A stretch of 42,727 nt of DNA from Candidatus Coproplasma excrementipullorum (GTDB lineage: Bacteria; Bacillota; Clostridia; Christensenellales; Borkfalkiaceae), in NCBI GenBank assembly GCA_018714165.1, contig DVNU01000091.1:1-42727 (forward strand). Direction: 5' to 3'. This document shows positions 19,993-32,759 of the stretch, in pieces (positions within the stretch are counted from its first letter, which is position 1; every line of letters begins with the position of its first letter). The notes below the pieces were generated by a model. It did not search any database and had not been told where the DNA came from. It worked only from the letters and a program-made list of their open reading frames with translations. The translations under genes and the position numbers were made by a program.

Positions 19993-20041
19993 TGCCATAT
20001 TGCAGCCTCCACAGGTGTCACCCAAAGGGCGACAGAAGGTT

Positions 20042-20254
20042 TTATTTGTCCAGGCAGAGTATGTAATTAGCATCCAAATCTAACACCTTACACAGATTAG
20101 CCAATGTATCCAGCGCAGGCATAGCCCTACCAGAAAGATACTGACCTATGGTGGGCTGTTTTATTCCAAGTCTTGCGGCAAGCTCTGTCTGTGTCATCCC
20201 GCTTTGCTTAATGCACTCTGCCAGTCTTTTCTGAATTTGCTCAAGCGTAATCAT
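20042..20254 (-). CDS. Cro/C1-type (XRE) transcriptional repressor
   Basis: A 70-residue single-domain helix-turn-helix protein. The five-helix XRE fold is complete: MTQTELAARLGIKQPTIGQYL (split as MTQTELAARLG, 20-30, and KQPTIGQYLSG, 32-42) forms helices 2-3, followed by PALDTLANLCKVLDL. There is no sensory domain. It diverges from two Cys-rich mini-genes across a 104-nt region containing two copies of a palindromic operator, which makes autoregulation plus control of the neighbours likely. GGGGGA precedes the ATG. The ending NYILCLDK contains one cysteine. Confidence 0.88.
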   Translation of the reverse strand: MITLEQIQKRLAECIKQSGMTQTELAARLGIKQPTIGQYLSGRAMPALDTLANLCKVLDLDANYILCLDK

Positions 20255-20283
20255 AAAATCCCCCGCCCTTTTTCTTTAATAAT

Positions 20284-20298
20284 ACAGGCAATGCCTAT
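20284..20298. promoter_or_regulatory. Operator site 1 of the XRE repressor
   Basis: ACAGGCAATGCCTAT is a near-palindrome that matches site 2 (20313-20327) in reverse orientation as ATAGGCATTGCCTGT against ATAGGTATTGCCTAT (13 of 15 identical). It lies just upstream of the repressor gene, overlapping its likely promoter on the minus strand (TATTAT, read from 20283 leftward). Confidence 0.6.
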
Positions 20299-20305
20299 AA
20301 AATGC

Positions 20306-20333
20306 TTGACATATAGGTATTGCCTATGATATT
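20306..20333 (+). promoter_or_regulatory. Promoter of the Cys-rich pair with embedded operator site 2
   Basis: TTGACA (20306-20311) and GATATT (20328-20333) are 16 bp apart. The spacer is almost entirely filled by operator site 2 (ATAGGTATTGCCTAT, 20313-20327), so repressor binding would block polymerase. The centres of the two operators are 29 bp apart. Confidence 0.65.
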
Positions 20334-20358
20334 TTAATGGTGTACAGGAGATAATGAT

Positions 20359-20622
20359 ATGGTAAATAAAGGGAAATGCTACAAGTGCAGAAGTTTTCTG
20401 AGGTATTATACCCGCGGAAGAATACAGTTCAATATTACAAAGTATGGCTGGTGCGGTACAAAACTTTGCACTGTTGAGGGCCAGAGTTGCTGTTGTGAAT
20501 TTAAACAAAGAATTCGCTCTAAGGGCAGCAGGTTAACTTTAAGGCTGTATTTAAGCGGACTTTTAACAGAAATTTCTGCAATAAAATTGTTGCTTGAAGA
20601 GGAAATGGATGAGAACTTGTAA
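20359..20622 (+). CDS. Cys-rich mini-protein A (putative zinc-binding)
   Basis: An 87-residue basic protein of unknown function. Cysteines at 7, 10, 32, 37, 44, 45 and 46 include a CYKC knuckle and a terminal CCCEFK. The pattern C-x2-C-x21-C-x13-C-E-x-K is shared with the next gene, so the two are probably tandem paralogues. The last 25 residues form an amphipathic, leucine-rich, acidic helix (SGLLTEISAIKLLLEEE). AGGAG lies 8 nt before the ATG, a strong site. Small CxxC...C...C proteins of this layout occur in Clostridial prophage and accessory islands, but no phage gene is nearby. Confidence 0.65.
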   Translation: MVNKGKCYKCRSFLRYYTRGRIQFNITKYGWCGTKLCTVEGQSCCCEFKQRIRSKGSRLTLRLYLSGLLTEISAIKLLLEEEMDENL

Positions 20623-20836
20623 GGGCTGTAATTTCTGCAAATCCTTGTATATGCGGCACGCGTGGAAGTACCATAAAATGAGGATGTATTATTGTGAGGT
20701 ACAACAGAAAATTATAACGCAGTTCGCCGCTTGCGAAAAATATAAGTACAAAATAGCCGACTATGATACCTCGGAAGAAAGGCTGACGGGCATACAGGAC
20801 GACATAAAATGCATTATTGCATTGCTGGAAGAATAA
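20609..20836 (+). CDS. Cys-rich mini-protein B (putative zinc-binding)
   Basis: 75 residues. Cysteines at 4, 7, 10, 29, 42 and 68. The layout C7-x2-C10-x18-C29-x12-C42-E-x-Y-K parallels protein A, and both end in a leucine-rich acidic helix (here IQDDIKCIIALLEE). The ATG at 20609 is preferred over a TTG at 20594 because GAAGAGG lies 5 nt upstream of the ATG. The gene overlaps protein A by 14 nt in another frame, so translation is coupled and the products may be made in fixed ratio. Function unknown; a Zn-dependent partner or complex is a guess. Confidence 0.65.
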   Translation: MRTCKGCNFCKSLYMRHAWKYHKMRMYYCEVQQKIITQFAACEKYKYKIADYDTSEERLTGIQDDIKCIIALLEE

Positions 20837-20874
20837 ATGCGGCGGGCGCACAATTTTGTGCGCCCGCCGCATTT
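20835..20874. terminator. Bidirectional terminator, 19-bp perfect stem
   Basis: AAATGCGGCGGGCGCACAA (20835-20853) is perfectly complementary to 20856-20874 around TT. It separates the rightward Cys-rich pair from the leftward membrane gene at 20890. Confidence 0.85.
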
Positions 20875-20889
20875 GTCCTCAACGGGTAA

Positions 20890-21378
20890 TTATTTCTTCT
20901 TTTTGTCGTTCTTGTCGGGTGTGTTTTCAACCGACTGAATGGCGTAACCCACCGCAGGGTTGACGTCCAGCACGGCCTGTACAAAATCCTGGTACTGCGC
21001 GCTCTTTATAACTACCGCAAAGTAGCTCTCGTCCTCCATATACACGAGCAGTTTGTTGGTCTCTCTGTCGAGTACCAGGGTGTCGACTTTCTTTATGTCG
21101 TAGTTGCTTATGATGAACCCGAAAGCCGCCCTTATCTGTTTTTCGTCTATGGCATAGTAGGACGAGCACAGCACGCTTATAAGCAACCCGCCCGCGGCAA
21201 TGGTCACCACGAACATCAGGCAATACATTGTGATGGGAATGACGGGGTTCATCGCCGTCGAAATTCCCTGGGCAATGCACAGATACAAATTTACTATAAA
21301 ACCTGCCAGGCAGATCGCCAGTCCCGCAATTATCAGAATGAGGGTGAGGCGGGGAAATGAGTACTTGAACTTTTTCAT
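20890..21378 (-). CDS. Membrane protein with a PH-like (YyaB/bPH) domain
   Basis: A 162-residue protein with two N-terminal membrane helices (about 12-34 and 44-70) and a cytosolic domain (about 74-150). The cytosolic pattern SSYYAIDEKQIRAAFGFI followed by YDIKKVDTLVLDRE and KLLVYMEDESYFAVVI resembles bacterial PH-like domains of the YyaB type: an alternating strand meander with the self-describing 'ID..IR..FGF' opening. The C-terminus is lysine-rich. Its ATG lies exactly six bases after a TATAAT on the minus strand and lacks a ribosome binding site, so it may be leaderless. Function unknown. Confidence 0.6.
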   Translation of the reverse strand: MKKFKYSFPRLTLILIIAGLAICLAGFIVNLYLCIAQGISTAMNPVIPITMYCLMFVVTIAAGGLLISVLCSSYYAIDEKQIRAAFGFIISNYDIKKVDTLVLDRETNKLLVYMEDESYFAVVIKSAQYQDFVQAVLDVNPAVGYAIQSVENTPDKNDKKKK

Positions 21379-21384
21379 AGGTAC

Positions 21385-21413
21385 ATTATATAATCAAAGT
21401 AAAAAAAAGGCAA
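21385..21413 (-). promoter_or_regulatory. Leaderless promoter of the PH-like membrane gene
   Basis: On the minus strand TTGCCT (21413-21408), a 17-bp spacer and TATAAT (21390-21385). The hexamer is followed by six bases and then the ATG at 21378, so initiation is predicted on the start codon itself. Confidence 0.65.
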
Positions 21414-21452
21414 CTTAAAGCGCGCATAATTTTATTTTGCCCGCCTGTATGG

Positions 21453-21481
21453 TTGAAAATTTTTTGCGGATATAGTAAAAT
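21453..21481 (+). promoter_or_regulatory. Promoter of the hydratase gene
   Basis: TTGAAA (21453-21458), a 17-bp spacer and TAAAAT (21476-21481), about 30 nt before the ATG. A GGGAG ribosome binding site lies between them. Confidence 0.6.
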
Positions 21482-21517
21482 AAATGCAAATTATCAAAGA
21501 CGGGAGTTAAGGCAGAT

Positions 21518-23743
21518 ATGATCAGACTGATTAAAAGCGGAGTTTATTACACGGGCGGAAAACTGGTAAAGGAGAACGTTGCATTTATGCGCGAAGAGCA
21601 GAAGAGGGCGGCTATAAAGGGCACGCTCGCTTACCGCATACTCTCTGCGCACAACTCCGGCGACGACGATCATTTAAAGATAAAGTTCGACGCGCTCGCT
21701 TCGCACGACATAACCTATGTCGGCATAATCCAGACGGCCAAGGCTTCGGGTTTAAAGAAGTTCCCCGTTCCCTACACCCTGACCAACTGCCACAATTCCC
21801 TGTGCGCCGTCGGCGGCACCATAAATGAGGACGACCATCTCTTCGGCCTGTCAGCCGCAAAGAAGTACGGCGGCAACTTTGTGCCTCCCCACCTTGCAGT
21901 CATTCACCAATATATGCGCGAAATGGAGGCGGGATGCGGCAAGATGATACTCGGCTCCGACAGCCACACGCGCTACGGCGCGCTCGGCACCATGGCCGTG
22001 GGCGAGGGCGGGCCTGAGCTCGTAAAACAGCTCCTCGGTCAGACCTACGACGTTGCCCGCCCCAAAGTAATCGCGGTATATCTCAAGGGCAAACTCAAAA
22101 AGGGCGTCGGCCCGCACGACGTGGCAATCGCCCTCGTCGGCGCTACATTCAAGAAGGGTTTTGTCAAAAACTGCGTGCTCGAATTTGTCGGCCCCGGCAT
22201 CAGAAACCTCTCTATGGACTACCGCCTCGGCATAGATGTCATGACCACCGAAACAGCCTGCCTGTCCTCGATATGGGAGACGGACGAGCTGACCGAGCAA
22301 TACTTCAAAATTCACGGCAGGGAGGAGGCCTATAAGCCCCTGCATCCCGCCGACCCTGCATATTACGACGGTGCCGTCGTCATCGACCTGTCGCGCGTCG
22401 AACCTATGATAGCCCTGCCTTTCCACCCCTCAAACTCATATACCATCCGCGAGGTCATCGACAACGCCCGCGACATTCTGGGCGAGGTAGAGGAGGCGGG
22501 CAACAGGTTGAAGGGCGGCAAAAAGCCCTTCCGTCTTCTCGATAAAATCACGCCGCAGGGTATACAGGTCAGCCAGGGCATAATTGCGGGCTGTGCGGGC
22601 GGCACCTACGAGAATGTGGCCGAAGCGGCCGAAATTCTGCGCGGGCACAGCTGCGGCTTCGACGAATTTTCGCTGAGCGTATACCCTCAGAGCCAGCCCG
22701 TATTCAAGTGCCTGGCTGACAACGGCTATGTCTCCTCGCTCATGGAGAGCGGCGCCGTCATAAAGACGGCCTTCTGCGGCCCCTGCTTCGGCGCGGGCGA
22801 CACCCCTGCCGACAACGGCTTCTCCATCCGTCATACCACGCGCAACTTCGAAAACAGGGAGGGCTCCAAGCTCGGCGAGGGCCAGCTTGCGGCAGTTGCC
22901 CTCATGGATGCGCGCTCGATTGCGGCAACGGCGGCAAACGGCGGCATGCTCACGCCCGCCACCGAGGTGCAGTATACCAAAAAAATAAAGAAGTACTACT
23001 TCGATAAGGCAATCTACGACCACCGTGTCTACCGCGGCGCATTAAAGCCCGATAAAAAGGCCGAGCTCATCTACGGCAACAACATTGCCGACTGGCCCGA
23101 ACAGATTCCCATAACCAAAAACGTACTCATCAAGGCCGTTTCGGTAATTAACGATCCCGTCACCACCACGGACGAGCTCATCCCTTCGGGCGAAACTTCG
23201 TCCTATCGCTCCAATCCCTTAAGGCTGGCCGAATTTGCGCTCTCCAGAAAGGATCCCGCATACGTCGGCAGGGCCAAGGAGGTAAAGGCGGCAGAGGAGG
23301 AGAGGCGTGCAAACGGCACACTGCCTGAAGAGGTGTTGAGCGAGGTGGGCATAACCATCGCGCCCGATACGATGTACGGCAGCTGCGTAGTTGCCCGCAA
23401 GCCCGGCGATGGCTCGGCCCGCGAACAGGCGGCCTCCTGCCAGAGGGTGCTCGGCGGCGTGGCCAACATCGCCTTAGAGTACGCCACAAAGCGCTACCGC
23501 TCCAACCTCATAAACTGGGGTATGCTGCCGCTTCTGTCAAAGTCATTTGACTATAAGGTGGGCGACTACATCTATATCGAAAACATAACCGACTATGTAA
23601 AGACGGACAACCCCAACATTCCCGCAAAGCTCATCTCAAACGGCAAGGTAAAAAATATCTATTTGGGCCTGGGCGCCCTCACCGAAGAGGAGAAAAAGAT
23701 AATCCTTTCAGGTTGCCTCATAAACTATAACAAAACAAAATGA
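21518..23743 (+). CDS. Aconitase-family hydratase (YbhJ-like)
   Basis: A 741-residue [4Fe-4S] hydro-lyase of the aconitase superfamily. The N-terminal two thirds show [14 protein letters not shown] (about 85-98), [14 protein letters not shown] (about 144-157), [11 protein letters not shown] (about 200-210), a first cluster-cysteine region [12 protein letters not shown] (about 350-361) and the CxxC pair in FCGPCFGAG (about 418-426). The C-terminal swivel-like domain has [27 protein letters not shown]-type spacing (read in pieces) with SAREQAA. The layout is closer to E. coli YbhJ-type hydratases than to housekeeping aconitase, so the substrate is uncertain. GGGAG precedes the ATG. Its stop overlaps the next start by 4 nt. 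Confidence 0.85.
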
Positions 23744-24489
23744 AAGTACAATTTTTAAACGGCAACGGCATAAAACTGCTCGCTGCCGTTTTAATGGTGG
23801 CAGACCATATAGGGATGTTCTTCTTTCCTCAGACAATGTGGCTCAGGGCTATAGGAAGGATTTCCTTACCGTTGTTTGCATATATGCTGGCAGAGGGGTG
23901 CCGCTACACAAAAAACAAGTTAAACCACGTTCTGCTCCTTGCGCTTGTGGCGCTTGCCTGCCAGATAGTCTACTTTTTTGCCGCTGGCTCCCTGCAGATG
24001 TGCATTCTGGTGACGTTCACCCTCTCAACGCTCATAACCTACGCCCTGCAGTACTTCAAGCGCTGTCTGTTCATCGGTGAAAGGCCGCTTACAACCGTGC
24101 TTGCGGCGGGCGGATTCATAGGTATGGTTTTCCTTACCTTTGTACTCAACAGCATAAATAGTATAAACGGGGTGTACTTTGCAATAGAATACGGTTTTTG
24201 GGGCTGTATGTTGCCCGTCTTTGCCTCGGTGTTCGATTTCAGAGGGTTAGGCGAAAGCGGGCTCGCGGCGCGGCTCGACAACGGCTGGGTCAGATTTTTC
24301 AGCTTTGCCGTCGGCCTGGTAATTCTGTGCGCCTTCCACGTAAGTCATCTTGAGTGGTTTTCGCTCATCGGCCTTGTGCCGCTGGCGCTGTACAACGGTC
24401 AGAGGGGTAAACTTAAGCTCAAGTATTTTTTCTACATCTTTTACCCCGCGCACCTTGCGCTCTTCTATCTCATCGCCGCATTAATTTAA
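23740..24489 (+). CDS. TraX family membrane protein
   Basis: A 249-residue polytopic membrane protein of the TraX family, whose founder is the F-pilin N-acetylase and whose Firmicute members are of unknown function. The family signature is the N-terminal [17 protein letters not shown] followed by [19 protein letters not shown] (residues about 10-26 and 35-53). About seven to eight hydrophobic helices follow. The C-terminus has [17 protein letters not shown], also typical. The ATG overlaps the hydratase stop (ATGA), so the two are translated together, an unexpected pairing. No conjugation genes are nearby. Confidence 0.88.
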
Positions 24490-24499
24490 TTTCAGCACA

Positions 24500-24528
24500 A
24501 AAAAACCGCGCTCAAGGCGCGGTTTTTT
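24500..24528. terminator. Bidirectional terminator between TraX and lipoprotein genes
   Basis: AAAAAACCGCGC (24500-24511) pairs with GCGCGGTTTTTT (24517-24528) around TCAAG. The A/T ends serve both convergent genes. Confidence 0.92.
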
Positions 24529-24531
24529 AAT

Positions 24532-24906
24532 TCAGTTGCCCTCTTCGGGTTGGGGCATAATTTCGGGGCAGCCGTCTTTTTCGCCGTTGCCGCAGTCGGG
24601 GCATCTGCAGTTGTCCCCGTTCCTGTGTCCGAATATGCGCCTTGGCCTGGGGCGTTCGCCCTTTTCGGGAGGAGGAATTCTGTCGTCGCGCCAGTGGTCA
24701 CCGTGCGGTTTTGGGTCATCTGGCGCAGGGACGGGCACGTCGGGAAGAACGTGCTCGCCGTCAGAATCCTTTCCGGGCTCGACGATACGGGTGTCGGGGC
24801 CGTCGTTGAGGTTCTGTCCGCCGCCCGTCTGTCCGTCGTTGCAGCCGCAAAGCATTGTCGCGGCCGCGCTTAAAATGCATATTGCCGTCATCAGTTTAGC
24901 TTTCAT
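24532..24906 (-). CDS. Proline/acid-rich lipoprotein of unknown function
   Basis: 124 residues. The start at 24906 gives a good lipoprotein signal: MKAKLMTAICILSAAATM then the lipobox LCGC with the lipidated Cys at 22. A longer frame upstream adds 16 residues that do not fit a signal peptide. The mature part is low-complexity: glycine/asparagine-rich, then proline- and aspartate-rich (DVPVPAPDDP), then Arg/Pro-rich (GERPRPRR), ending with CRCPDCGNGEKDGCP, four cysteines in a knuckle-like arrangement. It has no recognisable enzyme domain and is probably surface-anchored by lipid. The ribosome binding site is weak. Confidence 0.65.
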   Translation of the reverse strand: MKAKLMTAICILSAAATMLCGCNDGQTGGGQNLNDGPDTRIVEPGKDSDGEHVLPDVPVPAPDDPKPHGDHWRDDRIPPPEKGERPRPRRIFGHRNGDNCRCPDCGNGEKDGCPEIMPQPEEGN

Positions 24907-24947
24907 AACAAAAGTTTGGCATACTTTTACAAATTTATGCAAAATGC

Positions 24948-24976
24948 TTGCCACCAGCCGCGAAATATGCTAAATT
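24948..24976 (+). promoter_or_regulatory. Promoter of the TM1266/ABC transporter unit
   Basis: TTGCCA (24948-24953), a 17-bp spacer and TAAATT (24971-24976). Transcription would begin near 24983, at the 5' edge of the structured leader. Confidence 0.55.
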
Positions 24977-24979
24977 ATC

Positions 24980-25085
24980 TTTGCCTGAATTCAAAGGTTC
25001 GCCTGAAGATTAAGGGAAAACGCCAAATTTAAACAGTGCGCCGTCCGCGCACCGTTTTGCTGTGCTCCCTTTCAGGCAAAGGGGG
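24980..25085 (+). promoter_or_regulatory. Structured leader RNA with two competing helices (candidate riboswitch)
   Basis: One 3' strand, TTCAGGC(AAA) at 25071-25080, can pair with either of two 5' strands. Helix A uses TTTGCCTGAA (24980-24989), 10 bp. Helix B uses GCCTGAA (25001-25007), continued by AGGGA (25013-25017) with TCCCT (25066-25070). An internal hairpin stands between: GTGCGC (25036-25041) with GCGCAC (25047-25052), extended by AAAC/GTTT across one mismatch. The ribosome binding site AAAGGGGG (25078-25085) begins within the last bases of helix A, so the switch could gate translation. It matches no riboswitch class I know. One caution: the predicted start near 24983 would trim the first bases of helix A. 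Confidence 0.5.
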
Positions 25086-25093
25086 TATTTTTT

Positions 25094-25354
25094 ATGTCAG
25101 AAAAACGTCTGGCTGTCATTTCGCTCATCATCGAAAATCGCGACCAGAGCCCTGAAATCAACTCCATTCTCTCCGAATTCGGCGACTACGTCGTCGGCAG
25201 AATGGGCGTGCCGTATAAGGAGAGGGGTGTCTCCGTCATCTGCGTAATAGTCGACGCCCCCGCCGAGGTCATCAACTCAATTACCGGCAAAATCGGAATG
25301 TTAGACGGTGTGTCTGCAAAGACATTAATGAATAAATTTAAAAATAATTTTTGA
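25094..25354 (+). CDS. TM1266-family small regulator (ACT/NikR-C-like)
   Basis: An 86-residue protein of the family named for Thermotoga TM1266 and annotated as a putative iron-only hydrogenase system regulator. It has a ferredoxin-like ACT fold: strand KRLAVISLIIENRDQ (4-18), helix PEINSILSEFGDYVVGRMG (split as PEINSILSEFGDYV and GRMGVPY), strand VSVICVIVDAP (about 45-55) and helix AEVINSITGKIGML. The sequence follows this pattern throughout. AAAGGGGG precedes the ATG. No hydrogenase maturase gene (hydE, hydF, hydG) is in the window; instead an ABC importer follows after 39 nt. It has no DNA-binding domain, so any regulatory role would be through ligand binding or partner proteins. Confidence 0.85.
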   Translation: MSEKRLAVISLIIENRDQSPEINSILSEFGDYVVGRMGVPYKERGVSVICVIVDAPAEVINSITGKIGMLDGVSAKTLMNKFKNNF

Positions 25355-25393
25355 GGTAAAAGGGCATAACCTGATACCGAAAAGGAGTTTTAT

Positions 25394-26410
25394 ATGAAAA
25401 AATTGGCATCAATCCTCACCGCCGCGGCGCTCGCGGCAACAATGGGGCTCGGCCTTTCAGCCTGCACCCCCGAAGAATCTGCCGACGGCGTGTCCCTCCG
25501 CGGCATTTCAGGCGCAACCGACATCACGCCTGCGGCTGAAATTGACTACTTTGTCGCCGCCGAACCCGCCGTAACCACCCGCGCCAATGCAACAGGTCTG
25601 CATATAGTCGGTGACATTCAGGAACTGTATGGCTCGGAAAACGGCTATCCACAGGCCGTAATCGTCGCCAAAAACGAGCTTGTTTCTCTCAATGCTGACT
25701 TTGTGCAGGACTTTCTGGAAGAGGTCATCGCCAATGAGGCCTGGCTTGAAAGCGCCTCCGCTCAGACCGTTCTCGACGCCATAACAGCCAACCTTCCCGC
25801 AGGCTCCACACCGACGTTTACCGCAAACAATCTCAACGCACAGGTCATCGCCAACTGCGGCATACATTTTGTGCCCGCCTATGAGGATAAGGAGAGGGTG
25901 ACGGCCTTCCTCGCCGAAATGGCCGAAGTCGATCCGACATCCGTCGGCACAGTTTCAGATAATTTCTTCAATGGCGGGGATTGGACGACTTCGGGCGGCA
26001 GCGATGAAATTTCTGTGTACGCCCCCGACGGCGCGCCCGCGCTCGCTCTTGCAAAACTTATGTCCGAGAACAATCAGTTTAATCAGACTTCTGTGGACTA
26101 CAACATAGTCGCCTCCAGCACTATACAGAGCTATGTAACGGGCGATGATCCCGCAGCCGACATCTGTATTCTTCCCCTCAACGCGGCAAGCAAGCTTCTC
26201 GGCAGCGGACAAACTTACACAATGCTCGGCACGGTGACCAACGGCAACTTGTATATCCTCTCCGAGAGCGAAGAGGAAATAACTGCCCAAAACATAAAAG
26301 AGTTGCTCACGGGCAAAACCGTGGGCGTAATCCAGCTTGCGCAGGTCCCCGGCCTCACATTCAAGATAATTCTTGATAAGTATGGAATTCCTTACGAAAC
26401 TGTAGGTTGA
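25394..26410 (+). CDS. ABC transporter solute-binding lipoprotein, circularly permuted
   Basis: 338 residues. Signal peptide and lipobox LSAC (Cys 24) are normal. The mature part belongs to the ThiY/SsuA/NMT1-like type II binding proteins, but the lobes are in reverse order. Residues 33-195 correspond to the usual C-terminal part: IDYFVAAEPAVTT, YPQAVIVAKNELV, FVQDFLEEV, and a closing TSVGTVSDNFF. Residues 205-338 correspond to the usual N-terminal part: EISVYAPDGAPALALAKLM, ADICILPLNAASKLL, NLYILS, then GKTVGVIQ. A Gly/Ser/Thr linker (about 194-204) joins them. The new ends fall in the inter-lobe crossover (stop right after GIPYETVG). AAGGAG precedes the ATG, and the permease begins 2 nt after the stop. 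The ligand is unknown; related systems carry thiamine precursors, sulfonates or other small molecules. Confidence 0.85.
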   Translation: MKKLASILTAAALAATMGLGLSACTPEESADGVSLRGISGATDITPAAEIDYFVAAEPAVTTRANATGLHIVGDIQELYGSENGYPQAVIVAKNELVSLNADFVQDFLEEVIANEAWLESASAQTVLDAITANLPAGSTPTFTANNLNAQVIANCGIHFVPAYEDKERVTAFLAEMAEVDPTSVGTVSDNFFNGGDWTTSGGSDEISVYAPDGAPALALAKLMSENNQFNQTSVDYNIVASSTIQSYVTGDDPAADICILPLNAASKLLGSGQTYTMLGTVTNGNLYILSESEEEITAQNIKELLTGKTVGVIQLAQVPGLTFKIILDKYGIPYETVG

Positions 26411-26411
26411 T

Positions 26412-27197
26412 GTGAAAACGTTCAGAAAAATACTCAAAACAAACGCGCTGTGGGCGGTCGTCGCCGTGGCGGTGCTTCTTGCCGCGTGGCAGATAGCATT
26501 CGTCTGTGTGCGCAACGAATACGTTCTGCCGGGAATCGGCCAGACTTTAACGCAGTTCTTTGCGCTCTTTTCGCAGGGCTCGTTCTATGTCGCCCTCGGC
26601 AATACGCTTGCGCGCACTATAATTTCGTTTGCCGTATCATTCGTGCTGGCGGCGGCGCTCGCCGCCCTCTCGGCCGTGTGTGCGCCCTTCAAAACGGCGT
26701 GTTCCTGCATAATCTCGGTCGTGCGCACTCTGCCTACAATGGCTGTTACGCTGATGCTTCTCATATGGTCAACGCCGCGCGTGGCGCCCGCAATAGTCAC
26801 GGCGCTCGTTCTCTTTCCCATGGTCTATTCGCAGTTTGTCGCGGCGATAGAGGGTGTGGATAAAGACCTCCTCGAAATGGCCAAAGTCTACCGCGTAGCG
26901 CCTGCGGACAGACTCACTAAGATAATTCTGCCCGCCGTCGCTCCCGAAGTCATCTCCCAGATCGGCGCGGGGCTGTCGCTGGGGCTCAAGGTAATGGTCT
27001 CGGCCGAAGTGCTCTCATATACCCTGCACAGCATGGGCGGCCTCATGCAACAGGCCAACCTGTACTTCGAAATTCCCCGCTTCGCCGCGCTCACGCTGGT
27101 GTGCATAATCGTGGGGCTGTTGATGGAGCTCATCTCGCTGGGCCTCAGGCGCCTTACGGGCCGTTGGCAGGTAAAGGAGGGGGCAAATGTACATTAA
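26412..27197 (+). CDS. ABC transporter permease (ThiX/SsuC-like)
   Basis: Membrane subunit of the importer, 261 residues with about six helices. The EAA-type coupling loop is visible at about residues 144-170: AIEGVDKDLLEMAKVYRV followed by a proline-containing LPAVAPEV, the signature that docks on the ATPase. The N-terminal helix (about 13-32) and the block GNTLARTIISFAVSF (about 63-77) match the BPD_transp_1 fold of nitrate/sulfonate/taurine-type permeases. The start is GTG at 26412, two bases after the binding-protein stop, with only a weak AGG upstream, so translation is coupled. It overlaps the ATPase gene by 11 nt. Confidence 0.93.
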   Translation: MKTFRKILKTNALWAVVAVAVLLAAWQIAFVCVRNEYVLPGIGQTLTQFFALFSQGSFYVALGNTLARTIISFAVSFVLAAALAALSAVCAPFKTACSCIISVVRTLPTMAVTLMLLIWSTPRVAPAIVTALVLFPMVYSQFVAAIEGVDKDLLEMAKVYRVAPADRLTKIILPAVAPEVISQIGAGLSLGLKVMVSAEVLSYTLHSMGGLMQQANLYFEIPRFAALTLVCIIVGLLMELISLGLRRLTGRWQVKEGANVH

Positions 27198-27837
27198 AAA
27201 TCTTGTAAAGAGCTACTCCGATACCGCCGTGTTCAACGGCTTCTACCTTCAAATTGAGGACGGCTCTGTCACCTGCATACTCGGCGAAAGCGGCGCGGGC
27301 AAAACCACCCTGTTAAACGTCATTGCGGGTCTCACGCAGTACGAAGGGGAAGTTTCGCCCGTCAGGTGCTCGTACATCTTCCAGGAACCGCGCCTCGTGC
27401 CCAACCTTACGGTATATAAAAACCTTCGCCTCATCTGCCATGACGAGGGAGCGATAGCCGATATGCTCGCCCGCGCGGGGCTTACGGAAAAAGCCGCAAG
27501 CTACCCCGTTTCCCTTTCGGGTGGCCAGGCGCAGAGGGTGGCAATTGCCCGCGCCTTTCTTTTTGAAAGCGACGTCGTCCTGATGGATGAGCCATTCTCG
27601 TCCCTCGATTTAAAGCTCAAAATAAATATGATGAACGCATTTTCGGAAGTGCGCGCAAAGGATGGCAGAACGGCCGTCTTTGTCACCCACGACATAGACG
27701 AGGCGCTCTATCTTGCCGACAGAATAATCGTGCTTTCTGGCGGAAAGATTGTCTTTGACTGTAAAAATTCACCGTCCCGCCCGTTCGGCGCCCACTCGGA
27801 CTTGCGCGATGAATTAATAAAAGTACTCACCGCATAA
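27187..27837 (+). CDS. ABC transporter ATP-binding protein (SsuB/ThiZ-like)
   Basis: Cytosolic ATPase of the importer, 216 residues, at the short end for its class. All motifs are intact: Walker A GESGAGKTT (33-41), Q-loop YIFQEPRL (about 62-69), signature LSGGQAQRVAIARA (about 109-122), Walker B VVLMDEPF (about 130-137), D-loop SSLD and H-loop VTHDIDEA (about 160-167). AGGAGGGGG precedes the ATG. The gene overlaps the permease by 11 nt, which fits fixed subunit ratios. A strong terminator follows 46 nt after the stop. Confidence 0.95.
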   Translation: MYIKNLVKSYSDTAVFNGFYLQIEDGSVTCILGESGAGKTTLLNVIAGLTQYEGEVSPVRCSYIFQEPRLVPNLTVYKNLRLICHDEGAIADMLARAGLTEKAASYPVSLSGGQAQRVAIARAFLFESDVVLMDEPFSSLDLKLKINMMNAFSEVRAKDGRTAVFVTHDIDEALYLADRIIVLSGGKIVFDCKNSPSRPFGAHSDLRDELIKVLTA

Positions 27838-27883
27838 AGAGCATAAAAGCGCCGATTATTTTTCAAAGCGCATCATTGCGCAC

Positions 27884-27930
27884 AAAACAGGCCGCCGCGC
27901 CCCTTTTCGGGGCGCGGCGGCCTGTTTTTT
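27884..27930 (+). terminator. Intrinsic terminator of the ABC transporter operon
   Basis: A perfect 20-bp stem (27884-27903 with 27909-27928), loop TTTTC. A-rich at the 5' end and T-rich at the 3' end. Confidence 0.93.
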
Positions 27931-28024
27931 ATAATGTCAACCTTTTGAGTGTGCAATTGTAAAAATTTTGTTGCCATTTTTGCAAAAAACTTGTCTCAAA
28001 CATTTTTATTTTGCGCGCCGTTTG

Positions 28025-28033
28025 TGATATAAT
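28025..28033 (+). promoter_or_regulatory. Extended -10 promoter upstream of and antisense to the DUF1294 gene
   Basis: TGATATAAT (TATAAT at 28028-28033) with a weak TTTATT at 28005-28010. It points rightward, through the leftward DUF1294 gene, toward purE at 28409. No better promoter is seen in the 52 nt directly before purE. Confidence 0.45.
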
Positions 28034-28053
28034 TTTTATAAGGGTTAATTTGT

Positions 28054-28356
28054 TTATACCGCTATGAAACTGAAGCCAGAGCGGTACGCCAGCACTATAA
28101 ACCATATGTTCAGCGCTCCGATTACAGGCATAAGTATCATAAACAGCATATTCTTCAGCTTGAATTTGGTTATGAACATGGCAATGTAAATGCCCACCGC
28201 CCCGCCCAGCAGTGCGGAGAGTATAAGCTTCCCGTCGCCCGAATTGAGTTTGTTCTCGTCGATAAGGTATTCGTTCTTCTGCGAGACGAGCAGCATGACC
28301 GAATAAAAATTTATTGCGAGAATGTACACCGTAAAGATGATATACAACAGCAGCAT
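28054..28356 (-). CDS. DUF1294 family small membrane protein
   Basis: A 100-residue membrane protein with three to four helices. An N-terminal helix (about 2-24) is followed by a polar loop NEYLIDENKLNSGDGKL. The family-like segment ILSALLGGAVGIYIAMFITKFKLKNMLF (about 45-72, quoted here in pieces as LLGGAVGIYIAMF and KFKLKNMLF) matches the DUF1294 pattern of a glycine-rich helix and a following basic loop. A last helix ends the protein. Function unknown. It runs opposite to the purine operon, and its 5' end lies 52 nt from purE. The ribosome binding site is not evident; AAGG lies too close to the ATG. Confidence 0.7.
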   Translation of the reverse strand: MLLLYIIFTVYILAINFYSVMLLVSQKNEYLIDENKLNSGDGKLILSALLGGAVGIYIAMFITKFKLKNMLFMILMPVIGALNIWFIVLAYRSGFSFIAV

Positions 28357-28408
28357 ACCTTAAGTATGCGCAGACTGTCCCAATAATACGCATTTTACAG
28401 GAGATGTT

Positions 28409-28906
28409 ATGCCTAAAGTTGCAATTCTGATGGGTTCAAAATCCGATTTCCCCGTAGTAAAACCCGCCGTCGCCGCCCTCAAAAAGCTGGGTGTGGAGAC
28501 GGAGGTGCGCGTAATAAGCGCGCACAGAACGCCCGAAGAGGCGCACGAGTTTGCCTCGTCCGCAAAGGATAAAGGGACAGAGGTAATAATCTGCGCCGCA
28601 GGCAAGGCTGCGCACCTCGGCGGAGTAATTGCGGCATACACAACGCTGCCCGTCATCGGCTTGCCGGTAAAGACGGACATGATGGGCGGGCTCGACAGTC
28701 TTTTATCCATCGTCCAGATGCCTTCTGGCATACCGGTGGCCACCGTGGGCGTAAACGGCGGCGAAAACGCAGGCCTTCTGGCCGCGCAGATTCTGGGTAT
28801 AAAATATCCGGAAATTTCCGCCGCGCTCGCAGAGTATAAAAGCGCAATGCGCGATAAGATAAACGCGGACGACTGCGCCCTCCAACACGAACTCAAGGAC
28901 TTATAA
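28409..28906 (+). CDS. purE: N5-carboxyaminoimidazole ribonucleotide mutase
   Basis: Class I PurE, converts N5-CAIR to CAIR in purine synthesis. 165 residues. Family blocks: VAILMGSKSDFPVV (4-17), VISAHRTPEEAHEF (about 35-48), CAAGKAAHLGGVIAAYT (about 62-78) and GGLDSLLSIVQMPSGIPVATV (about 92-112, in pieces GGLDSLLSIVQ and PVATVGVNGGENA). The usual HLPG is HLGG here. AGGAG lies 7 nt upstream of the ATG. No purK follows; the next gene is purC. It is first in a long purine operon. Confidence 0.96.
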   Translation: MPKVAILMGSKSDFPVVKPAVAALKKLGVETEVRVISAHRTPEEAHEFASSAKDKGTEVIICAAGKAAHLGGVIAAYTTLPVIGLPVKTDMMGGLDSLLSIVQMPSGIPVATVGVNGGENAGLLAAQILGIKYPEISAALAEYKSAMRDKINADDCALQHELKDL

Positions 28907-28913
28907 TACCTTC

Positions 28914-28938
28914 ATACCCGCAGTGCACCTGCGGGTAT
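28914..28938 (+). terminator. Hairpin between purE and purC (possible attenuator or partial terminator)
   Basis: A perfect 10-bp stem (ATACCCGCAG, 28914-28923, with 28929-28938) around TGCAC, starting 8 nt after the purE stop. It lacks a T-run. The remaining 127 nt to purC hold no gene and no recognised riboswitch. Confidence 0.5.
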
Positions 28939-29065
28939 TGCATTTGTCGCAATTTGACAATCGGCGACAGCTTTCTGTTGCTTCGAGTTTCTAAAGAACG
29001 CGGCACGCAAGTTAAAATTTATCAGAAGTCAAAATTAATTTTCAAAGGAGCTAAATATATTTGCT

Positions 29066-29791
29066 ATGGAAAAGAAAGAACAGCTTTACGAAGGCAAGGC
29101 AAAAAAGGTGTATGCCACCGAAAACCCCGATTATGTAATCGTATCCTACAAGGATGACGCTACGGCGTTCAACGGTCTTAAAAAGGGCACGATCGTCGGC
29201 AAGGGCGTCATCAACAACAAGATGACAAATATGATGATGCAGATGCTCGAAAAGAAGGGCATCCCCACACACTTTGTCGAGCAGATTGACGACAGAAACA
29301 CTGTAGTCAAAAAGGTTGAGATTGTCCCCCTCGAAGTAATCATAAGGAACGTGGCCGCGGGCAGCTTTTCCAAAAAATACGGCGTGCCCGAAGGTACGCC
29401 CTTCAAGGCTCCCACAATAGAGTTCTCCTATAAGAACGACGAGCTCGGCGATCCCCTCATCAACAGCTATCACGCGCTCGCTTTAGGCCTCGCCACGCCC
29501 GAAGAGATCGAAACTATAAAGAAGATGGCCTTCTCCGTCAACGATATAATGAAGGAGTTCTTCAAGCACCTCAACATCGACCTCATCGACTTCAAGCTCG
29601 AGTTCGGCAGATTCCACGGCCAGATCGTGCTCGCGGATGAAATTTCGCCCGACACCTGCCGCTTCTGGGAGGCGGGCACCTGGGATACGACCAAGCACAC
29701 CAGCCTCGATAAGGACAGGTTCCGCCGCGACCTCGGAGGCGTAGAGGACGCCTACAACGAAATCTTCAAGCGTCTCACCACGGGAGAATAA
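29066..29791 (+). CDS. purC: SAICAR synthetase
   Basis: Joins CAIR and aspartate with ATP. 241 residues. The N-terminus [16 protein letters not shown] is the PurC glycine-rich/nucleotide region; later blocks are [11 protein letters not shown] (about 28-38), [15 protein letters not shown]-like (here [15 protein letters not shown], about 87-101), [14 protein letters not shown] (about 116-129), DFKLEFGRF (about 172-180) and [12 protein letters not shown] (about 188-199). AAAGGAG is 15 nt from the ATG, a long spacing, but no other in-frame start lies between. The stop is 6 nt from the next gene. Confidence 0.97.
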
Positions 29792-29797
29792 TCGCAC

Positions 29798-31219
29798 ATG
29801 GGCGGTTTTTTCGGCTCGGTCAAGAGGACGAGCGCCGTATTCGACGTATTCCTCGGTACCGACTATCATTCCCACCTCGGCACAAAGCGCGGCGGCATGG
29901 CGGCCTATGACTCATATATAGGCCTCCAGCGCGAAATTCACAACATCGAAAACGCGCCCTTCCGCACCAAGTTCGAGCGCACTCTGTCCGAAATGCGCGG
30001 CAACGCCGCCATAGGCTGTATCTCCGATACCGACCCCCAGCCCCTTTTAATGGTCTCCAAGCTGGGCAAATACGCCATCTGCACAATAGGCATCATAAAC
30101 AACGTCGATGAGTTGATGTCAAAAATTCTCGCCCGCGGCGGCTATTTTGATGCGATGACGGGCAGCAAGGTCAACGCCAACGAGCTAATCGCCGCCCTCA
30201 TCAATACCAAGGATTCCTATGTCGAGGGCATACGCTACGCGCAGAACTGCATTGACGGCACGGCGTCCATATTGCTTCTTACCGACCGCGGCACTTTGAT
30301 TGCCGCGCGCGACAGGATGGGCAGACTGCCCGTCCAGCTCGGCAGGAGCGACGAGGGCTACTGCGTATCCTTTGAAAATTTTGCCTACCGCAAACTGGGG
30401 TATTCAGATTTCCGCGAACTCGGCCCCGGCGAAATTGTGGAAATTTCCGCCGACGGCGTAACCCAGCTTGCGCCTCCCGGCAAAGAGATGCGCATCTGCG
30501 CCTTCCTTTGGTCGTATTACGGCTATCCCACGTCGTCGTACGAGGGAGTCAACGTTGAAATCATGCGCTGCCGGAACGGCGAAATTTTCGCGCGCGAGGA
30601 CGCCAAGACACACGATATGCACGGCATAGACTATGTCGGCGGCGTACCCGATTCGGGAACGCCCCACGCTATAGGTTATGCCAACGCCAGCAAGGTGCCC
30701 TTTGCGCGGCCCTATATAAAGTACACGCCCACCTGGTCGCGTTCGTTTATGCCCGTAAACCAGTCCGAGCGCAACAAAGTGGCAAAGATGAAACTCATCC
30801 CCGTACACGAGCTCATCGAGGGCAAGCGTCTGCTTCTCGTCGACGACTCGATAGTGCGCGGTACCCAGCTCAAAGAGACGGTGGAGTTCCTATATTCTCA
30901 CGGCGCCAAGGCTGTGCATATGCGCTCAGCCTGCCCGCCAATAATGTACGGTTGCAAATACCTCAACTTTTCGCGCTCGTCGGGCGATATGGATTTAATC
31001 ACCCGTCGCACCATGGCCGAGCTCGAAGGCGACGAGGCCATAAAGCATCTGGAAGAGTACAGCGATTCCAAAACGGAGCGCGGCAAGGCGATGCGCAAGG
31101 CCATCTGCGACAAGTTCAAATTCGAATCTCTCGAATTCCAGTCCCTCGAAGGCCTGACCGAAGCAATAGGCATCGAGCCTTGCAAGCTGTGTACCTATTG
31201 CTGGACCGGAAAAGAGTAA
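29798..31219 (+). CDS. Amidophosphoribosyltransferase-like protein without the catalytic N-terminal cysteine
   Basis: 473 residues, PurF architecture: N-terminal Ntn glutaminase-like domain (about 1-225) and phosphoribosyltransferase domain (about 235-473). The N-terminus is MGGFFGS, with glycine where PurF has its nucleophilic Cys, and no propeptide. The glutamine-binding NGN motif is also gone (GIINNVDEL instead of AHNGNLTN). By contrast the PRPP loop LLLVDDSIVRGTQ (345-357), GGVPDSGTPHAIGYA (281-295) and Fe-S-type cysteines (234, 379 or 386, 462, 465) remain. The flexible loop differs from PurF (YTPTWSRSFMPVNQSERNK). A true PurF follows. It may use free ammonia, act on another substrate, or regulate PurF. 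GGGAG is 11 nt upstream. Confidence 0.85.
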   Translation: MGGFFGSVKRTSAVFDVFLGTDYHSHLGTKRGGMAAYDSYIGLQREIHNIENAPFRTKFERTLSEMRGNAAIGCISDTDPQPLLMVSKLGKYAICTIGIINNVDELMSKILARGGYFDAMTGSKVNANELIAALINTKDSYVEGIRYAQNCIDGTASILLLTDRGTLIAARDRMGRLPVQLGRSDEGYCVSFENFAYRKLGYSDFRELGPGEIVEISADGVTQLAPPGKEMRICAFLWSYYGYPTSSYEGVNVEIMRCRNGEIFAREDAKTHDMHGIDYVGGVPDSGTPHAIGYANASKVPFARPYIKYTPTWSRSFMPVNQSERNKVAKMKLIPVHELIEGKRLLLVDDSIVRGTQLKETVEFLYSHGAKAVHMRSACPPIMYGCKYLNFSRSSGDMDLITRRTMAELEGDEAIKHLEEYSDSKTERGKAMRKAICDKFKFESLEFQSLEGLTEAIGIEPCKLCTYCWTGKE

Positions 31220-31346
31220 CTCTTGAGCAATATTCATCGTCCAAGGCGAGCTTGAACAATTTTAATATAAACAGCTTTAATATAGTATAGAAAGAGAGAG
31301 CAGGCAGACATAAACTTTTCCTTAACAGGAGATTATAGTTTAATAT

Positions 31347-32759
31347 ATGGACGAAATTCAAAACGAAATCCACGAAGAGTGCGGCGTGTTCGGCGTGTAC
31401 TCTCAGGAAAACCGCGATGTGGCGTACACCGTTTACTACGGCCTTTACGCCCTTCAGCACCGCGGCCAGGAGAGCGCCGGAATAGCCGTCTCCTACGCGG
31501 ACAAAATAACCTATTACAAGGGTATGGGGCTCGTCCCCGACGTGTTTTCGGGCGGTAATCTAGAAAGGTTGCCCGAAGGCGACATTGCAATAGGTCATGT
31601 CCGCTATTCCACGACGGGCGCAAGCCAGCTTTTAAATGCCCAGCCCGTGGTGTTCACGGGCAAGTGCGGCAAGATGGCGCTCGCCCACAACGGCAATCTG
31701 ACCAACACCAAACAGCTACGCGATGAGATGATAGCCGAAAACGCCGTCTTTCAGACGACAATCGACTCCGAGGTAATGGCCGTAGCCATCAATTCTATGT
31801 CCGACGGCGACATCTTGGAGGGAGTAAAGAGGGCCTGCCCCAGGTTTAAAGGTTCGTATGCCCTTGTGCTGATGACTACCGATAAACTCATCGCCGTGCG
31901 CGACCCTTACGGCATCCGCCCCCTGTGCATAGGCTCCATAGTCGACGACTATGTCGTCGCCAGCGAAACGTGCGCGCTCGACGCCGTCGGCGCAACATTT
32001 ATCCGCGACGTAAAGCCGGGAGAAATCGTCGTCATCGATTCTCAGGGTATTCACTCATATATGATGGACAATCTGCCCGAAAAGAGCAGAATGTGTATCT
32101 TTGAATATGTATACTTTGCCCGCCACGATTCAGTAATGGACGGTTGCAGCGTATATCAGGCACGCAAGGAGGCGGGCAGACTGCTCGCCAGATACTACCC
32201 CGTAGAGGCCGACCTCGTTTCGGGCGTGCCCGATTCGGGCAATGTTGCCGCGCGCGGATATGCCGAAGAAAGCGGTATACCTTTTGTGGAGGCGCTCGCT
32301 AAGAACAGGTACGTAGGCAGAACGTTTATCCAACCCGACCAGAGGCAGAGGGAGAATTCTTTAAGCGTCAAGATGAACGCCCTGCGCGCCAACATCGACG
32401 GCAAGAGGGTGATAATAATAGACGACTCAATTGTTCGCGGCACCACGATGCGCAGGATAATCAAGATGCTTCGCAACGCGGGCGCAAAGGAAGTGCACAT
32501 ACGCATCTGTTCGCCCATAATCAAGCACCCCTGTCACCTCGGCATAGATATTCAGACCTACGGTCAGCTCATCGGCGCGTATAAAAATGAGGATCTGATT
32601 TGTGAAAGCCTTGGCGCCGACTCGGTGAGGTATCTTTCCATAGATCAGCTCGTGCAGACCTGCTCTTCGGCGAACGTCGGGTTCTGCCTGGGCTGTTTCA
32701 ACGGACAGTATCCCTACCCGCTCGAAGGTTACGAAGCGGACAAACTAAAACTCGAATAA
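31347..32759 (+). CDS. purF: Amidophosphoribosyltransferase
   Basis: Committing enzyme of purine synthesis (PRPP and glutamine to phosphoribosylamine). 470 residues. An 11-residue propeptide precedes the nucleophile Cys 12 (CGVFGVY). Glutaminase residues lie in LQHRGQESAGI (36-46) and AHNGNLTN (113-120). PRPP site: VIIIDDSIVRGTT (355-367). The [4Fe-4S] ligands of the Bacillus-type enzyme are present (C250, C396, C447, C450), so the enzyme should be oxygen-sensitive. The FARHDS block and KNRYVGRTFI loop are canonical. AGGAG lies 15 nt from the ATG and no nearer start is in frame. The 127-nt gap to the previous gene shows no clear promoter. Confidence 0.97.
   Translation: MDEIQNEIHEECGVFGVYSQENRDVAYTVYYGLYALQHRGQESAGIAVSYADKITYYKGMGLVPDVFSGGNLERLPEGDIAIGHVRYSTTGASQLLNAQPVVFTGKCGKMALAHNGNLTNTKQLRDEMIAENAVFQTTIDSEVMAVAINSMSDGDILEGVKRACPRFKGSYALVLMTTDKLIAVRDPYGIRPLCIGSIVDDYVVASETCALDAVGATFIRDVKPGEIVVIDSQGIHSYMMDNLPEKSRMCIFEYVYFARHDSVMDGCSVYQARKEAGRLLARYYPVEADLVSGVPDSGNVAARGYAEESGIPFVEALAKNRYVGRTFIQPDQRQRENSLSVKMNALRANIDGKRVIIIDDSIVRGTTMRRIIKMLRNAGAKEVHIRICSPIIKHPCHLGIDIQTYGQLIGAYKNEDLICESLGADSVRYLSIDQLVQTCSSANVGFCLGCFNGQYPYPLEGYEADKLKLE

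Follow-up and report, generated by a model that had tools for sequence, protein, structure and literature searches.

How does the solute-binding lipoprotein of an ABC importer come to be encoded with the parts of its mature chain in another order than in its homologues, and is such an order the accident of one genome or a lasting alternative? The window, i.e., the whole stretch of 42,727 nucleotides of Candidatus Coproplasma excrementipullorum analysed here, raises this question with the open reading frame at 25394-26410 (forward strand, as for all features below). It encodes 338 amino acids in a single open frame, with a signal peptide and the lipobox LSA before the cysteine C24, and AGGAG at 25383-25387 lies 6 nt before its ATG. 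An earlier reading, made from the sequence alone, had noted the normal lipobox, the single frame and the ribosome binding site, all of which hold; it had also given the spacing to the permease gene as 2 nt, which must be corrected to 1 nt, the permease starting with a GTG at 26412. Upstream, at 25094-25354, is a TM1266-family gene (iron-only hydrogenase system putative regulator; NCBIfam TIGR03959, 105.9 bits for a cut-off of 60.8), a conserved neighbour that flanks the exchange cassette discussed below. Downstream are an ABC permease (26412-27197; best NCBIfam match SaoP, 68.1 bits, below the cut-off of 295) and, in the same operon, an ABC ATPase (27187-27837). The signal peptide, the lipobox cysteine and the operon with permease and ATPase identify the protein as an ABC solute-binding lipoprotein (hereafter SBP).

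The mature chain of this protein reads B-C-A, and that of its homologues A-B-C. The signal peptide up to the lipobox (25394-25462) is common to permuted and canonical genes and forms the left edge of the exchanged cassette. It is followed by the codon of C24 (25463-25465), a residue invariant in the 31 permuted and 21 canonical proteins aligned. Block B (residues 33-68, 25490-25597; VSLRGI...DYFVAAEPAVTTRANAT, ending in EPAVTTRANAT) is mid-chain in the canonical order. Block C (residues 69-195, 25598-25978; LHIVGDIQELYG...YPQAV...NFFNG, with GDIQELYG inside it) is C-terminal in that order. A new linker (residues 196-205, 25979-26008), variable in length and sequence in the alignment, joins the old C and N termini and leads to block A (residues 206-338, 26009-26407; ISVYAPDGAPAL...LTFKIILDKYGIPYETVG, from VYAPDGAPAL to IPYETVG), which is N-terminal in the canonical order.

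If the chain is a circular permutant, writing it twice should restore one full-length match to a canonical profile, and it does. A profile of 21 canonical relatives scored 200.5 bits on the single mature chain of the window protein and 395.6 bits on the doubled chain; canonical chains gained nothing on doubling (e.g., from 457.1 to 454.7 bits for L057 with the same profile). The swapped order proposed from the sequence alone is thereby confirmed far beyond chance. Both parts are homologous to the canonical protein, they are swapped, and they are linked at the old ends, as had been proposed for the position of the join. These comparisons support a natural circular permutation of a solute-binding lipoprotein.

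Two block orders coexist in one genus

A search of 61 genomes (its own and 60 relatives) gave one collinear match in 11 genomes of the same genus, and most of the remaining congeneric genomes had two, with their order swapped. Among 93 genomes of Candidatus Coproplasma, mostly metagenome-assembled for the named records, 37 carry the permuted form, 53 the canonical one and 3 gave no match. The canonical homologues have about the same length and occupy the same locus as the permuted genes; 51 of the 53 were typed within one open reading frame and two by eye at contig ends (G089 and G107, the order of the latter spanning two contigs). The sequence-only reading had proposed to look for the same order in orthologues, and it is found in 36 further genomes. 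The order is hence no oddity of the window genome, nor is it the standard of the whole family, because both orders coexist within the genus. No genome was found to carry both forms among the 93, many of which are incomplete drafts, and a search for a second SBP copy in the window genome found none.

We fetched 91 loci, of which 88 could be typed by block order in one open reading frame: 36 permuted and 52 canonical, the latter including L020, which belongs to another family. The script left untyped two loci at contig ends (L089 and L091) and the permuted L053 of genome G113. The SBP gene of L053 (positions ~1501-2493) has a TAG inside block A and is either a decayed gene or the product of an assembly base error. 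The three genomes without any match to the SBP (G020, G023 and G074; 97%, 67% and 83% complete) reflect either loss or an assembly gap.

A misjoin in a metagenomic contig can be set aside with near certainty as the source of the swapped order, for the window genome is indeed a draft (91 contigs, 81% complete), but 37 of 93 genomes share the order, the other 36 in independent assemblies whose proteins are 42-74% identical to that of the window, TM1266, permease and ATPase all adjoin 32 of the 36 typed permuted loci, and G113 is the sole one of the 37 with an in-frame stop; the earlier argument against an assembly error is in practice borne out.

Both types share one slot and are scattered over the species

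Permuted and canonical genes share one slot, in the order TM1266-SBP-permease-ATPase. The three neighbours all adjoin 40 of the 52 canonical genes as well, and the loci lacking one of them are short, cut by contig ends, or have neighbours below threshold. TM1266 is found at 84 of the 91 SBP loci. In 20 wider loci it is always upstream, and purE lies downstream in 17.

We compared the distribution of the two types on trees of the species and of each gene, all of them quick reconstructions. On the ribosomal-protein tree, which holds 76 of the 93 genomes (the 17 without an rplB match being left out), the type changes 18 times among 73 typed genomes; supported branches force 17 of these changes, counted with the three no-match genomes included. 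On the SBP tree there are 2 changes in 88 rows (of the 91 loci, L053 was left out for its in-frame TAG, and L089 and L091 for their contig ends). The 5' and 3' halves of the permease give 8 and 6 changes, respectively, in 84 rows each, so the 3' half is tied to the SBP type no less closely than the 5' half. The ATPase tree has 17 changes in 64 rows, for a shuffled mean of ~21 (16-17 of 500 shuffles were as low), and the TM1266 tree 26 in 82 rows. L020 was excluded from the permease, ATPase and TM1266 trees, and L057 also from the first two. A single permuted clade is rejected on the permease and ATPase (p 0.009). Since type changes are few on the SBP and permease trees and many on those of the neighbours, the type goes along with the SBP and the permease and is scarcely tied to the neighbours.

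The types are scattered over the species tree of the genus, and in 20 of 71 genomes the nearest relative carries the other type. G100 and G104 are the opposite-type pair closest to each other, their ribosomal proteins differing by 0.3% and their ribosomal DNA by 2.5%. Among permuted genes and among canonical genes, more distant species have more distant SBPs (Mantel rho 0.55 and 0.54, p 0.001, 71 genomes); between types, the medians of SBP distance are 0.53-0.56 however close the species are (rho 0.11). With one genome per species, alleles at this one locus cluster by type and not by species, as they would under trans-species polymorphism. Such a pattern would arise if the types are old, persist for longer than species do and are exchanged by homologous recombination. 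The flat distance between types, its rise within types and the shared edges described below are what is expected of long-lived types exchanged in this way.

The exchanged segment has one sharp edge and one variable edge

The DNA of closely related genomes of opposite type places the limits of the exchange. Canonical G104 and permuted G100 align over 4283 bp at 96.0% identity, a stretch that ends 70 nt inside the SBP gene, where the signal-peptide codons end. Homology is then lost across the mature SBP, save for a weak match of block A at a shifted position, and regained at 84.6% identity from 0.60 of the permease. Homology stops within the gene in 6 of 7 opposite-type pairs (20-71 nt from its start, three of them at 70-71 nt) and 57 nt before it in the seventh (G083/G086). 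The right edge lies at 0.01, 0.39, 0.41, 0.60, 0.90 and 0.97 of the permease in six pairs, the contig of the seventh ending earlier. A fixed right edge near the EAA motif of the permease, suggested by G104/G100, was dropped, as the edge differs between pairs. In two same-type pairs homology is unbroken through the locus. Sliding identity across the SBP is ~42-66% in 8 opposite-type pairs, against mostly 60-92% in 5 same-type pairs.

These alignments show that species exchange the mature SBP together with a stretch of the permease that varies in extent, the edge lying in the signal-peptide codons; the shared signal peptide would offer one edge for homologous recombination. Between types, homology resumes anywhere from 0.01 to 0.97 of the permease length. 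Because these points vary, the permeases of the exchanging species are mosaics.

Could one genome instead encode both forms, with a recombinase shuffling the segments and each assembly capturing one state? Sister genomes that differ in state and a sharp left edge would fit such a switch, which is nevertheless very improbable: a second copy is absent from all 93 genomes (many of them incomplete drafts), and the forms differ at ~54% of residues, so that neither is a shuffled version of the other. A history of two paralogues already present in the ancestor, with one kept per species by differential loss and no exchange of alleles, is also improbable, if less so. It would account for each type forming its own clades, roughly along species groups. 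Against it, both types sit in the same slot, none of the 93 genomes has both, and sister genomes share their flanks and signal-peptide DNA (96% for G104/G100), with edges inside genes.

Further rotations and repeated origins

Beyond the genus, a first contig scan with the single window protein as query gave no matches. With an alignment as query, the best 80 of 348 relatives provided 79 loci. Among these 79 loci, 17 have the order C-A-B, with block B at the chain end (hereafter P2; L278 is counted as such). Doubling raised the score of 10 of the 17 chains; the other 7 do not gain as one domain, and their order rests on separate block hits and on reading the sequence. In the genus of G155, P2 was found in 18 of 103 genomes among the matches listed, and 12 further loci were all canonical on inspection; genome-wide typing reads the order of matched segments, and inspection concerns the fetched loci. 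One P2 locus, L234 of Christensenella sp. UBA7597, takes a different place relative to the other P2 proteins in different trees and possibly has its own origin; there is a run of X in its translation.

A profile of six distant permuted proteins uncovered further cases across the order. On inspection, the order B-C-A was seen in G219, G277, G169 and G471 (all in f3), in G334 (f24) and in G422 (f1, another genus), and C-A-B in G123 and G243 (f32). A third rotation, A2-B-C-A1, with the cut after GSLYLIG (P3), was seen in G265 and G400 (f32), in whose genus it occurs in 4 of 7 genomes. Of 391 genomes searched across the class, 40 gave a match. All 15 genomes from beyond the order for which two parts were listed were canonical, and a search of viral contigs confirmed no relative.

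Identities computed with chains rotated into one order link several of these proteins to canonical neighbours. The B-C-A proteins of f3 share 60-70% identity with canonical congeners and no more than 34% with B-C-A proteins elsewhere. For that of G334, identity is 60% with one canonical congener, 29% with another and no higher than 32% with B-C-A proteins elsewhere, and the P3 proteins share 57-60% identity with canonical congeners. For G422 the values are 44% for the canonical congener and 45% for B-C-A elsewhere, and the P2 proteins of G123 and G243 have no canonical congener in this comparison of 148 chains.

The 148-chain tree requires 12 changes among four states, of which starred branches force 7 for B-C-A and 3 for P2; the tree is unrooted, and these counts do not distinguish gains from reversions. 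A tree of 81 chains likewise needs 12. (The SBP tree with the P2 loci left out L050, L090, L214 and identical chains, and the 148-chain tree also L020.) A single origin of B-C-A was rejected: one clade of the 34 B-C-A proteins has a p-AU of 2e-8 (81 of the 148 chains). The loci L209 and L223 nest in a canonical clade of Coproplasma-like sequences, and joining them to the main permuted clade gives p 0.042. For L202 (p 0.143, 91 of 129 rows) and L054-L056 (AU p 0.375) the trees favour neither placement. Within Candidatus Coproplasma alone, constraining the permuted SBPs to one clade gives a slightly better fit than leaving the tree free, so a single origin there is not rejected. Five further B-C-A lineages (L247, L216, L220, L222 and L224) are on long branches of the SBP tree and may be additional origins.

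A relic gene and the possible route of rotation

One gene bears on how the rotation may arise. In G347 (f3) the order is canonical, with the difference that the mature N-terminus reads SEFDSVFYDASAASEKGGGSG before block A. This piece resembles the end of block C and the linker of permuted congeners (VPDSVYYDEAQATEQGNGSG in G471), and the C-terminus of G347 does not have it. The DNA alignment of L333 with L324 is unbroken through the relic and block A (433 bp, 74%). The simplest reading of these sequences is that the gene went from canonical to B-C-A and then to a near-canonical order through an in-frame tandem duplication followed by loss of the outer parts. L331 and L333 (G244 and G347) are 90% identical over 1979 bp from about the start of block A and 75% upstream, a possible exchange with its edge just after the lipobox, in another family.

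The route of rotation would be as follows. Downstream of the signal-peptide codons, the mature-coding part would be copied in tandem; loss of the outer pieces would then give a chain in which a short linker connects the old termini and the new ends lie in the loop from a helix to a strand. The mature chains tested included no tandem-duplicated intermediate, so we infer this duplication from one relic, that of G347. The fold and the ligand pocket would survive, with the lipid tether moved to another face, so that ligand binding and docking in the importer would go on as before. The rotated gene would then persist beside the canonical one as two long-lived types, swapped by recombination between related species.

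Cut sites, fold and family

Type II solute-binding proteins have a usual layout of two lobes joined by crossovers, which we used to place the cuts. The sequence-only reading had put the B-C-A cut in the inter-lobe crossover. This is probably not so, as the alignment with the solved chain 3hn0 and this layout put it inside lobe II, probably between the helix LTFKIILDKYGI and the strand VSLRGI. A crossover cut would fit another permutant, P3 (first crossover), and by the same alignment and layout the cut of P2 would be near the return crossover. Eight positions are at least 99.5% identical over the 148 chains, in columns of the rotated alignment (P4, G6, P67, G92, E230, P231, Q281 and P295); they include the P and G of PDGA, the E and P of the EP motif, the Q of LQ and the P of YPQA. 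Because they are conserved regardless of rotation, they argue that the fold and the ligand pocket are kept across rotations.

The window protein belongs to no named family at cut-off in Pfam or NCBIfam. Pfam has no family for it, and NCBIfam gives a weak piece of SsuA_fam (TIGR01728). Membership in the aliphatic sulfonate family SsuA is not indicated, with 17.7 bits for the window protein and 35.8 for the canonical L057 at a cut-off of 163.5. The canonical members have weak profile similarity to SsuA, NMT1 and NMT1_2: SsuA_fam matches 14 of 21 canonical relatives (best E 5e-9) and the Pfam family NMT1 13 of 21 (best E 4e-6). The sole solved chain clearly matched by the canonical profile is 3hn0, a 'nitrate transport protein' chain in the PDB (E 5e-12). 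It has the canonical order and is distant from the window protein, which it matches weakly and in swapped order (E 0.26). No riboswitch that could name a ligand reached its gathering score in 8 related loci, and positions 20000-32000 of the window gave only matches below gathering scores.

Discussion

Taken together, the window protein is very probably a permuted, lipid-anchored SBP of an ABC importer, with a bilobed fold like that of type II proteins (NMT1/SsuA-like), whose rotation is recurrent, whose types are exchanged and whose route of origin would be that given above. At the level of sequences, the comparisons show the block order, its recurrence, two further cut sites, one gene with a relic and exchange between species. 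The case thereby reaches further than the sequence-only reading of one gene had it, with recurrent permutation, three cut sites and cassettes exchanged among species.

There is about an even chance that the locus is a natural generator of permutations, opened in at least three loops, several times and in several families, with re-rotation in at least one genus, and that its types are long-kept exchangeable alleles, probably because the anchored terminus alters the exposed surface or docking. It is also quite conceivable, if something short of even, that the permutation has no effect and that old divergent alleles spread by neutral recombination, the rotation merely marking them. The conservation of motif positions in all rotations fits such neutrality, as does the fact that what travels together follows gene neighbourhood. 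It would nevertheless be hard to see how the permutation arose repeatedly in one family and persisted over the genus unless it brings some advantage or this protein tolerates it in a way that others do not.

As a rule, a family shows one natural circular permutation, which goes back to a single old event. Within a limited search of open-licence literature, the one natural permuted SBP was TpMglB-2 of Treponema pallidum; neither a type II case nor a family permuted repeatedly at different cuts came up. TpMglB-2 (Tp0684) is a circularly permuted glucose-binding lipoprotein, whose topology is also described in other treponemes and in Gram-positive, often gut, bacteria; the authors of that work propose horizontal sharing and a connection with membrane tethering (PMC4990184). 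Like the window protein, it is a natural circular permutant of a lipid-anchored SBP of an ABC system. Unlike it, TpMglB-2 has a type I/cluster B sugar-binding fold with one cut, whereas the weak family matches of the window protein are NMT1/SsuA-like. TpMglB-1 (tp0545), which has the canonical residue order (Table 2 of PMC4990184), is encoded by a separate gene from TpMglB-2, whereas the Coproplasma types are alternatives at one locus. The available passages of that description mention neither a second or third cut nor cassette exchange (PMC4990184). The present case stands out by how many events and how many cuts it comprises, and in that its types co-exist at one locus.

For annotation, the locus is a warning: a collinear profile loses half its score on the permuted chain, and Pfam misses the window protein. 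For the study of permutation, one gene offers repeated events, different cuts, canonical partners up to 70% identical, a relic, and sister genomes that differ in rotation at one locus. Together these make questions on permutation directly testable: how it arises in DNA, and whether via a tandem duplicate; how far a fold limits the places at which its chain can begin; and whether it makes a difference to the importer, or to recognition by phages or antibodies, where the lipid anchor sits.
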